Source: Phycisphaerales bacterium (GTDB taxonomy: Bacteria; Planctomycetota; Phycisphaerae; Phycisphaerales; SM1A02). Taken from it: 64,000 nt of DNA. Below, piece after piece: positions 14,125-17,346 of this stretch. The stretch lies in the NCBI GenBank assembly GCA_029260575.1, contig JAJDDB010000009.1:248001-312000 (forward strand), written 5' to 3'. The notes under the pieces are model-generated. The model had not been told where the DNA came from. It did not search any database and worked only from the letters and a program-made list of their open reading frames with translations. Both the position numbers and the translations under genes were made by a program. Numbering within the stretch: the stretch's first letter is position 1; each line of letters starts with the position of its first letter.

Positions 14125-15189
14125 ATGCCCTTTCCGCCAGTTCCTACTGCAGCAAAACGGGAGATCAGACGCGCCGGTGAGACCTTGGCGTCGGGCACTC
14201 TTTCGATCGGGCAAGATGAGCAGGCGCGTAAACTCATTGCACAGTGGCGGGCAGCCCACTTGATGCCACTTGCCGCTGCTGCAAATGACTTGAATCAGGT
14301 GCTAGAGGATTGCGAGGTAAACGCCATAGTCGCGCAGCGCACTAAGCGTCTGTTTCGGATTGCGCAAAAGTTGCAAGAGACACCCACTATGAACGCCACT
14401 ACGATGCAAGACATTGCCGGTCTGCGTGCAATTGTCCCGTCGATGGAGGAAGTAAATCGAATTCGTGATGCTTATCAAGCTACAGGAGTTCAGAACTCCG
14501 AGATCCACACGATTTCCGATTACAATGACGGTCCGAAGGAAAGTGGATACCGAGGTGTCCATATAGCTCTCCGACATCGAGGAGGCATCGCCTCTGCGTA
14601 TGACGGAATGAGAACTGAGCTCCAATTGCGAACTAACGCGCAGCATCTTTGGGCCTCTGCTGTGGAAACAGTCGGAATGTTTGAGGGACAGCGACTTAAA
14701 TATGATGAAGGCGATCCAGAGTGGATACTGTTCTTCGCGTTGGCGGGCGAGTTAATAGCCAGGAGCGAGGAATTGCGTCGTGGGTATGCGTTTGCGGATA
14801 TGTCAGATGCTGAAGTGCAGGCCGACCTAATGGTTGTAGGACAACAAATCAATGCCATAAAGCGAATGCATGGAATCGGGCATGAACTCATAGTTATTGA
14901 GGATACGCAAGGCAAAATAGTCGAGATCGAACCGCACACTAAACTGTTGCTGCTCGATCCATCGCAGAACGTACTTCGGATTCAGGCGTATAGTGATGAG
15001 TCGTACGATGAAGCACATGATGCGTATGCAAATGCGGAGCAGCAAGTCACGTTCGAAGTCGGAAGTATTACCCCTGTGTTGGTCGCAGTACAATCACCCA
15101 CTCAACTTAGAGATGCATATCGAAGCTTTTATCTCGATATCAAACCGTTTGCCGAACTGATTCAACGCTTGTTGGACAATCCGAATTGA
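14125..15189 (+). CDS. RelA/SpoT-domain protein, small alarmone synthetase-like, with extra C-terminal domain
   Basis: 354 residues. The first 200 carry a nucleotide pyrophosphotransferase fold of the RelA/SpoT family: a basic R-x-K segment (QRTKRLFRIAQKL, 71-83), MQDIAGLRAIV (95-104), DYNDGPKESGYRGVHIAL (132-149) and the catalytic-region TELQLRT with Glu165, then HLWASAVE. These match the (p)ppGpp synthetase motifs, so it is probably catalytically competent; some toxic members of this superfamily modify tRNA instead. No HD hydrolase domain is present. Residues 200-354 are unassigned and could be a regulatory or sensor domain. Length exceeds ordinary small alarmone synthetases (about 200-250). 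Tight coupling to the methyltransferase-nuclease suggests an immunity module. Confidence 0.8.
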   Translation: MPFPPVPTAAKREIRRAGETLASGTLSIGQDEQARKLIAQWRAAHLMPLAAAANDLNQVLEDCEVNAIVAQRTKRLFRIAQKLQETPTMNATTMQDIAGLRAIVPSMEEVNRIRDAYQATGVQNSEIHTISDYNDGPKESGYRGVHIALRHRGGIASAYDGMRTELQLRTNAQHLWASAVETVGMFEGQRLKYDEGDPEWILFFALAGELIARSEELRRGYAFADMSDAEVQADLMVVGQQINAIKRMHGIGHELIVIEDTQGKIVEIEPHTKLLLLDPSQNVLRIQAYSDESYDEAHDAYANAEQQVTFEVGSITPVLVAVQSPTQLRDAYRSFYLDIKPFAELIQRLLDNPN

Positions 15190-15337
15190 GTTGAATCGCG
15201 CAACACAGTTGCCAAGAAGCGTGCTCGACACAAACGCAGGGTGCAGCGACTTCGCGGGTATTGAGGCCGGGCGCTTCGCTCATTCAGCGATTCATTGGAC
15301 TCAGTGGAGTCTTGAGAACGTTCAGCGAAGTTTTCTT

Positions 15338-15409
15338 GAGACCCAGCGGCGCTTTCTTTAACGTCTCAGGAAACTTCCGCGAGTCCTAAAGAAACGTCCG
15401 CTGGGTTTC
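15338..15409. repeat. Large imperfect inverted repeat (23-bp arms)
   Basis: The left arm 15338-15360 and right arm 15387-15409 match at 19 of 23 positions as reverse complements; the shared cores are ACCCAGCGG and TTTCTTTA. The loop is 26 bases. It is the longest stem in the noncoding stretch downstream of the island genes. There is no T tract on either side. Confidence 0.6.
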
Positions 15410-15614
15410 ATATCTGGACGCTCGATCGTTGAAAACCGCAATCCCGGCGTGCAAACGCACGCTCGGCAAGACATACGCATACGAAGAAGACTCACCGGCG
15501 CTGCAAGAGTTACCTCTCGCGTGCACGTGAGAATTCGGCCCTGCTCAGCACACTCGCATTGACTTGGCACAAGCCGATTGTCTCGTCCGCACGCGACACT
15601 TTGTGGGTGTGGTG

Positions 15615-15996: not shown

Positions 15997-16089
15997 GTAT
16001 AAGAGTTGTGGCAGGGGGTATAACTGCACGGGGCAGAGGTGGTCGGATTCCCCGAGACGTTGATCCGACCGGGACGAGGCAAGGAGCGG

Positions 16090-17346
16090 ATGATGGTCGC
16101 ATCAGAAACCCGCCGACAGAGGCTTGAGCAACTCCTGGAGCTTGCCCAAGCCTATCGAGGATGGAGCCGTAAACGCCTGGCAAAAGCATTGCGGCGCGAT
16201 CCAACGAAAATGATTCCTGATAGTGGTAACCCCAAGCTGGACTTTGTGCTTGATCTCTCCCGTGCGTTGGACTGGCCGCTCGATGTTGTTGTCGAGAGCC
16301 TGTTCGGTGCGGATGAGCCGGTGCACAGCGAGGTTACTACTGATGCGCTGGATGTGGAAGCACTCGATGCAGCGGCAAAGAAAGCTCACCGTGAAGGTCG
16401 GTATTCCGACATGATCACGCTGGCCCGCCGTTCGTACATGATTGCTGATGCACCTGAGCAGCGGGCGGTCGCGTGTAACCGTGAAGCAGGCGGTTGGGAC
16501 GGCCTCGGCAGGTACGCATCAGTTCTGGAGGCAATCCAGCGAGGTTTGCGCGAATCAGATGTTTCAACTGATGTTCGCATGCTGCTGAAAGTCAACCTTG
16601 CCAATGCGTACTACACGCTTTGGCAGTTGGTTGAATCGCGAGCCACCGCGCGTGATCTGGTTGATTGGTTTGAAGATCACCCGCCGAGCACGAAGCGGCA
16701 GTTCGTTGTGCAGGCGTTTGCGTATTACGTCCGTGGGCATAGCTTCCGCAGGCTCATCGAACTCGAACCGCAGCATATCAAGCATTTTGCTGCACTCGCT
16801 CACACGGATCTGGAACACTCCCGCCGGTTGCATGAGCAGCTTGCGGATGAGTATTCCGATGAGGCGTACCGCGGTATCGCACGAACCTGCGAAGGCGGCA
16901 TAATGGAAATCGACGTCGCGCTTGGCAATGTCGCACCCGAAGCTGCGCTCGAGCGTTTCAGCGATGAACTGGATCACCTCATCGATCCCGCAGCCTATCC
17001 GGTTGGCGATCAGCTTGAAGCAATGGGTTGGTGGTGCATCTTTGCGTGCAACATCGCGCTTCGTCATATCAGTGATGAAAAGAAACTGCAGCAATCAATG
17101 GCTTTGTTCACCAACAAAGCAGATGAGATTGCCAATCATTTGGACAACTGGTCCATGCGTGAGCGTGTGTTCACCATGGAGTTCGCTCGGCGTCAAAGGA
17201 TGACCGACTGGACCGGCATCGAACCGGACTGGGCGATCGATTCCGATGACGTTCGTGTATTGGCCGGAACTATGGGGCGCTTCCCTGCGTTTCACGGAAC
17301 CGGGTGGCGGATCCTTCAGACCGCCAAGGTCATTCGTAATAGTTGA
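16090..17346 (+). CDS. HTH transcriptional regulator with TPR-like helical C-terminus
   Basis: 418 residues. The N-terminal 70 form a Cro/C1-like helix-turn-helix (LEQLLELAQAYRGWSRKRLA, then PKLDFVLDLSRALDWPLDVV). The remainder is all-helical and resembles TPR-type sensor regions (EALDAAAKKAHREGRYSDMI, LLKVNLANAYYTLWQL). Such regulators usually bind DNA through the HTH and a peptide or partner through the repeats. AAGGAG at 16081-16086 supports ATG 16090 or the adjacent ATG 16093; an in-frame ATG at 16039 lacks a site. Only 19 bp separate its stop from the PEP-CTERM-like gene, so the two are probably co-transcribed and it may control the PEP-CTERM/exosortase programme. Confidence 0.65.
   Translation: MMVASETRRQRLEQLLELAQAYRGWSRKRLAKALRRDPTKMIPDSGNPKLDFVLDLSRALDWPLDVVVESLFGADEPVHSEVTTDALDVEALDAAAKKAHREGRYSDMITLARRSYMIADAPEQRAVACNREAGGWDGLGRYASVLEAIQRGLRESDVSTDVRMLLKVNLANAYYTLWQLVESRATARDLVDWFEDHPPSTKRQFVVQAFAYYVRGHSFRRLIELEPQHIKHFAALAHTDLEHSRRLHEQLADEYSDEAYRGIARTCEGGIMEIDVALGNVAPEAALERFSDELDHLIDPAAYPVGDQLEAMGWWCIFACNIALRHISDEKKLQQSMALFTNKADEIANHLDNWSMRERVFTMEFARRQRMTDWTGIEPDWAIDSDDVRVLAGTMGRFPAFHGTGWRILQTAKVIRNS

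Follow-up and report, generated by a model that had tools for sequence, protein, structure and literature searches.

A probable, divergent CapRel-family toxin–antitoxin fusion encoded behind a methyltransferase–Mrr gene in a Phycisphaerales bacterium

A gene in the 64,000-nucleotide stretch of Phycisphaerales DNA analysed here (the window) very probably encodes a CapRel-family fused toxSAS toxin–antitoxin, a reading to which we give a probability of roughly 90%, and in which the C-terminal tail of the protein would be both a cis-acting antitoxin and a sensor of infection. The demonstrated part of this case consists of full-length homology, domain order, the conservation of catalytic and lock residues, and the divergence of the trigger surface, while the functions of CapRel from Salmonella phage SJ46 (CapRel SJ46), as given in passages of PMC9712102 and PMC11578894, served as the reference for the mechanism proposed.

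In a Pfam scan of the 354-residue protein the RelA_SpoT domain (PF04607) covers residues 71–178 (E 7.7e-16) and is followed by a tail of about 150 residues, confirming an earlier note on this DNA, made from the letters alone, which had described a protein that extends well beyond its synthetase motifs. Nucleotides 14725–15189 correspond to residues 201–354, a segment that contains no cysteine, and the putative antitoxin/sensor part proper occupies residues ~228–351 (nucleotides 14806–15177). The features of the gene and of its upstream neighbour are as follows, with the name alpha7 assigned by order, against the description of CapRel in parts of PMC9712102:

12771–14117, + strand: N6/N4 DNA methyltransferase fused to an Mrr-type nuclease domain, 448 aa (Pfam)
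14125–15189, + strand: capRel-like gene, putative fused toxin–antitoxin, 354 aa (ATG start; open reading frame present)
14215–14709, + strand: predicted toxSYNTH (toxin) domain, residues ~31–195, approximate boundaries (Pfam and alignment)
14716–14766, + strand: predicted connector helix (CapRel alpha7), residues 198–214 (AlphaFold2 model)
14806–14874, + strand: predicted anchor-1 helices (alpha8, alpha9), residues 228–250 (model, alignment to SJ46, and family profile to 9erv)
14890–15087, + strand: predicted cysteine-free pseudo-zinc-finger domain, residues 256–321 (AlphaFold2 model and sequence)
15097–15177, + strand: predicted anchor-2 with YXXY-type neutralisation motif, residues 325–351 (model and alignment)
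15118–15129, + strand: putative lock motif Y332-R-S-F335, within anchor-2 (alignment)

Chance was also considered as an explanation of the reading frame at 14125–15189, and was rejected. The earlier note had called the tail unassigned, which stands for Pfam and NCBIfam, neither of which matched residues 200–354 alone at E≤1, but not for other libraries or for CapRel itself. The PADLOC profile PDC-S33 matches residues 7–350 with an E-value of 2.2e-88 and the tail piece 200–354 alone with 8.4e-20, and PHROG 4773 gives a near full-length match (E 1.3e-70) and also recognises residues 200–354 alone (E 6.5e-11); both libraries hold these entries without a description or function. As CapRel SJ46 itself matches PDC-S33 (E 7e-87), the candidate label and the fused CapRel proteins appear to be one family.

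In a phmmer search of the PDB the two structures of CapRel SJ46 (7ZTB and 9ERV) came top with an E-value of 4.4e-26, followed by a small alarmone synthetase at 1.5e-7, and by tblastn the CapRel gene of phage SJ46 was matched over 97% of the query at 26.7% identity, together with 96 plasmid records at E 1e-10 or better, 83 of them with a coverage of at least 80%. A family profile of 125 rows, from which SJ46 had been left out, matched 7ztb with an E-value of 1.6e-84 over profile positions 9–348, with the other 24 sequences among the matches listed confined to positions 32–182. The tail behaved in the same way by itself: a tail-only profile, built from 94 of those 125 rows, matched residues 238–370 of 7ztb/9erv with an E-value of 1.5e-13, and the next PDB entry stood at 0.13. 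The comparison with CapRel-type C-terminal domains proposed in the earlier note thus yields a match, and its guess that the C-terminus acts as a sensor or antitoxin of the toxSAS type is borne out by the CapRel antitoxin/sensor domain; its suggestion that the tail may be a new sensor has to be withdrawn. The match that by its own account would have refuted it, to a known regulatory segment from a housekeeping enzyme, did not appear: the non-CapRel chains listed stay within the stretch of the profile given above, and no other RelA_SpoT domain was found in the genome. The protein is a divergent new member of the CapRel family, only ~26% identical to SJ46 and one of two rows flagged for long branches in the tree described below, and its tail is not a new kind of sensor.

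The structure prediction and fold search that the note had called for point the same way for the full-length protein, which was modelled by AlphaFold2 with a pLDDT of 92.4 and a pTM of 0.91. After the toxin domain the model places helices at residues 198–214, 228–241, 244–250, 291–307, 325–331 and 340–351, with a short helix at 333–336, and the strands of the pseudo-zinc finger at 256–260, 272–278, 283–289 and 316–321, so that helix 291–307 precedes the last strand. Passages of PMC9712102 describe for CapRel a series of connecting helices, then a sheet of three strands, the last two of which are separated by a helix, and finally a C-terminal helical extension bearing the YXXY hinge, and the order of secondary structure predicted by the model is the same. 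Foldseek ranked 7ztb and 9erv top for the full model (best 7ztb, E 5.6e-20, TM 0.67), with a high rmsd over all columns (~10 A) that may reflect a different hinge angle. In VIA-align 7ztb reached Z 26.0 over 278 residues at 3.4 A (range 6–352) and 9erv Z 24.2, compared with Z 15.1 over residues 28–218 for the best non-CapRel entry; the small alarmone synthetases scored Z 12.5–15.1 and were aligned only within residues 28–219. Modelled alone the tail was less certain (pLDDT 79.8, pTM 0.63), and CapRel then ranked first and second with a Foldseek probability of 0.89–0.90, yet with E 0.07–0.12 and TM 0.39–0.48. Since these fold scores for the isolated tail are weak, we base the claim made for it on the sequence profile and the model of the whole protein.

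No relative was found when viral contigs were scanned with the single protein as query; with the alignment as query they gave 188 relatives, and genome contigs gave at least 535, the best 80 being kept from each. Of the 176 loci collected, we dropped L003, L007–L011, L032 and L083, which are partial or distant, and L001 and L004, which are the window itself, so that the alignment holds 167 full-length rows (the window and 166 loci). Among the loci left out, a CapRel-like gene in Escherichia phage vB_EcoM-673R5 (L003, 2956–4055) is annotated as two adjacent CDS, corresponding to the toxin and tail parts, and the CapRel-like toxin encoded in L007 (1390–2115, − strand) has 241 aa, lacks the tail and may be an unfused form. 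Relatives spanning most of the query were also seen in L062, L094 and several candidate-phyla loci, on contigs assigned by binning to Nanoarchaeota, Pacearchaeota and candidate-phyla bacteria, where the assignment may be in error.

The ATP-site arginines and the G-loop tyrosine of the toxSYNTH domain are present as R72, R101 and Y142, which align with R79, R116 and Y155 of SJ46 and are invariant in all 167 rows. Every row likewise carries [YF]xx[YF] at positions 332/335, in the strict form YxxY in 141 of the 167; the lock of our protein reads YRSF and not YPNY as in SJ46, with F335 shared by 16/167 rows and R333 by 5/167. Mutations that render SJ46 toxic are reported in PMC9712102, at least in the parts covered here, for A77, R116, V338, L339, A341, A351, Y352 and Y355, the counterparts of which are A70, R101, V318, L319, A321, A331, Y332 and F335; seven of the eight are identical and the remaining one is a change from Y to F. 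Sections of PMC9712102 and PMC11578894 link eleven SJ46 positions to the trigger (L280, L307, K269, L270, D273, N275, L276, K278, S279, R314 and K316), and at these only one residue is identical (D260 for D273) and two fall in gaps of the capRel-like protein, a comparison that is indicative only, being a sample of named sites of which several lie in gap-rich columns. By mean column entropy the last strand is the least variable part (1.24 bits), followed by the toxin domain (1.84) and anchor-2 (2.0), and the values are high in anchor-1 and in what remains of the pseudo-zinc finger (2.63–2.85 bits). Judged from the alignment, the lock is kept but not the sensing surface, as passages of PMC9712102 describe for CapRel, and since just one of the sampled trigger positions is identical the trigger is probably different from that of SJ46.

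Because homology, fold order and lock residues all match SJ46, the CapRel mechanism is the best reading of this protein. Residues ~1–195 would form a tRNA-pyrophosphorylating toxin and residues ~228–351 an antitoxin that acts on it in cis and also senses infection. In the resting state the anchor-2 motif Y332-R-S-F335 would lie between R72 and R101 and block the ATP site, kept in place by V318, L319 and A321 of the final pseudo-zinc-finger strand. During infection a phage protein would bind the variable surface of the pseudo-zinc finger and anchors and keep the tail away, and the freed enzyme would pyrophosphorylate the 3' ends of tRNA, arresting translation and phage growth (abortive infection). 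By analogy with CapRel SJ46, the autoinhibition, the tRNA substrate and the phage-protein trigger are each likely.

The capRel-like gene adjoins a gene of restriction–modification type, a putative restriction system, with the stop codon of the methyltransferase–Mrr gene ending 7 bases before capRel and both genes running in the same direction. In Pfam the upstream protein matches N6_N4_Mtase (E 2.4e-50) and, at its C-terminus, Mrr_cat (22.8 bits, cut-off 21), and the Mrr-type domain carries GDMGIDG and QVK motifs, a putative active site. A relative of the methyltransferase in L178, which was inspected together with L179 as an ORF list, is 66–69% identical over the matched pieces. In 1-kb windows the GC content is 0.49–0.53 from 12.5 to 15.5 kb and 0.54–0.61 across the rest of 6–24 kb, as would suit an acquired cassette; a search for short repeats around the gene pair found no clear insertion ends. 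The gene upstream of the pair is peptidase-like, and at five loci with relatives of that gene no match to the methyltransferase was found in up to 1.5 kb of flanking sequence, which would fit an insertion. About 150 bases downstream of capRel lies an imperfect inverted repeat of 24 bases (83%, 15337–15410), perhaps a terminator or a relic, and further on, at 16039–17346, a 435-aa protein is encoded whose best Pfam E-value from residue 20 on is 0.14, with no NCBIfam match at E≤1 over the same part.

At four other loci the capRel gene sits inside or abuts type I restriction genes, in overlapping reading frames:

L006, 29–3670: hsdM, 4-base overlap, capRel, overlapping hsdS
L067, 2985–10163: hsdM, hsdS, 4-base overlap, capRel, 4-base overlap, hsdR
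L135, 3504–10223: hsdM, hsdS, 17-base overlap, capRel, hsdR (its likely ATG ~20 bases on)
L023, 1951–11624: hsdR, hsdS, 20-base overlap, capRel, hsdM ~2.8 kb on

In L020, in addition, a methylase fragment ends 121 bases upstream of capRel. Close contact with restriction genes is therefore found in 5 of the 167 rows, the window included, or in six with L020; this is no population frequency, as the rows were chosen by similarity, the top 80 of each of two collections being taken together with a few others. L058 and L165 (methylases 536 and 612 bases upstream, respectively), L136 and L176 were left out of the embedded count, and misses are likely, restriction genes having been sought with four small query sets. 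A Pfam scan of neighbouring proteins, covering the window with 90 of 91 upstream proteins (without L002) and 90 of 94 downstream proteins (without L154–L157), returned, among the families listed (25/48 upstream and 25/39 downstream), for the most part integrases of phage type, regulators and isolated matches to unrelated families. By this count restriction linkage is a minority pattern. On a tree of 90 of the 167 rows, made by a quick method and with 30 of its 87 inner branches open, the restriction label (6 rows) requires five changes, at least three of them forced by starred branches, and 54 of 500 label shuffles needed as few; the pattern is compatible with repeated origin, but such changes cannot tell gain from loss.

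These contacts bear on an alternative in which capRel and the methyltransferase–Mrr gene form a functional unit, the toxin being silenced by the restriction enzyme or fired when a phage protein inhibits that enzyme, much as PrrC sits in the EcoprrI operon (described in passages of PMC3874165). We regard this as unlikely, even with the 7-base gap, the shared strand and low-GC patch, the overlaps with type I genes and the forced changes on the tree speaking for it. CapRel has its own antitoxin and therefore needs no silencer, close contact is confined to the few rows counted above, and the label is not clearly clustered. Moreover, none of the 29 other loci with methyltransferase relatives (best matches) carried a match to the CapRel profile in the flanking sequence scanned, up to 1.5 kb, so the methyltransferase/capRel pair is not conserved, a result that led us to lower our estimate both for this alternative and for a broader version of it. 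The broader version, in which a subset of CapRel proteins including this one was recruited more than once into restriction–modification operons as a restriction guard, its sensor reading not the capsid but anti-restriction proteins of the phage, or the restriction enzyme once inhibited, seems to us a little more doubtful still; if a guard of this kind did operate, a phage that disarmed restriction would fire the tRNA-pyrophosphorylating toxin. Defence genes within restriction operons are, besides, a general pattern and already known: DarTG2 lies between hsdS and hsdR (in passages of PMC12255303), and the PDC candidates of PADLOC were found through guilt-by-embedding (as parts of PMC10855318 and PMC12988326 relate). 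No CapRel inside a restriction operon is named in the titles and abstracts searched, or in passages of PMC10440598, PMC12255303 and PMC12671086.

Far less probable is a housekeeping or stress alarmone synthetase with a regulatory tail. The synthetase fold and the conserved G-loop tyrosine would suit such an enzyme, and the capRel-like protein holds the only RelA_SpoT domain found in its genome (95.3% complete), so that no other protein was found that could provide (p)ppGpp by that route. However, of 151 related genomes only 8 have a RelA_SpoT domain of any kind, its own among them (6 of the 121 good genomes), and the same search was positive in 11 of 14 known genomes used as a control; the stringent response by the RelA_SpoT route thus seems absent from most genomes of the lineage. 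CapRel relatives are present in 2 of the 151, its own among them, which together with the low GC of the gene argues against a housekeeping role. In a sample of the phylum 7 of 392 genomes had a CapRel match, near full length only in its own genome and in G235, and the other RelA_SpoT matches of that sample (L007–L011) are partial and were not used. The protein also lacks the features of a long RSH (Rel/SpoT) enzyme, with RelA_SpoT the only domain above the Pfam cut-off and no hydrolase, TGS or other C-terminal regulatory domain, and at 354 aa, with its tail, it differs from single-domain small alarmone synthetases (RelP/RelQ, ~200 residues, no antitoxin tail). RSH chains match over the synthetase only, and the antitoxin lock is conserved. 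The least probable reading, a new sensor domain unrelated to the CapRel tail and fused to a toxSAS, could draw on the silence of the curated Pfam and NCBIfam models and on the low identity of anchor-1 to the other rows (mean 11%, residues 231–255), but is contradicted by a tail-only profile that finds CapRel and nothing else below 0.1, by the shared order of secondary structure, and by PDC-S33 and PHROG 4773, both of which cover the tail.

The CapRel-family assignment places the protein closest to CapRel SJ46, with which it shares full-length homology, the toxSYNTH residues, and the two anchors with a cysteine-free pseudo-zinc finger between them and a YXXY-type lock, all in one polypeptide. 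It differs in sequence, with ten of the eleven sampled trigger positions changed or missing, and in setting: the gene here lies on a 402-kb bacterial contig beside the methyltransferase–Mrr gene, and that of SJ46 in a phage. PhRel-ATphRel of mycobacteriophage Phrann and the unfused CapRel-ATcapRel likewise pair a toxSAS with a related antitoxin (in the parts of PMC9712102 that deal with them), but are encoded by two genes and not by one fused protein. PrrC and DarTG2 resemble it as growth-blocking defence genes in restriction operons, but are other proteins, and the partner here is a fused methyltransferase–Mrr protein whose coupling to capRel is hypothetical.

What the earlier note left as a tail to be explained is thus identified as part of a divergent CapRel from a lineage poor in RelA/SpoT domains. 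With its lock kept and its trigger surface changed, the protein lends itself well to the search for another CapRel trigger, and the presence of CapRel within restriction operons makes the restriction-guard hypothesis directly testable and worth an experiment.
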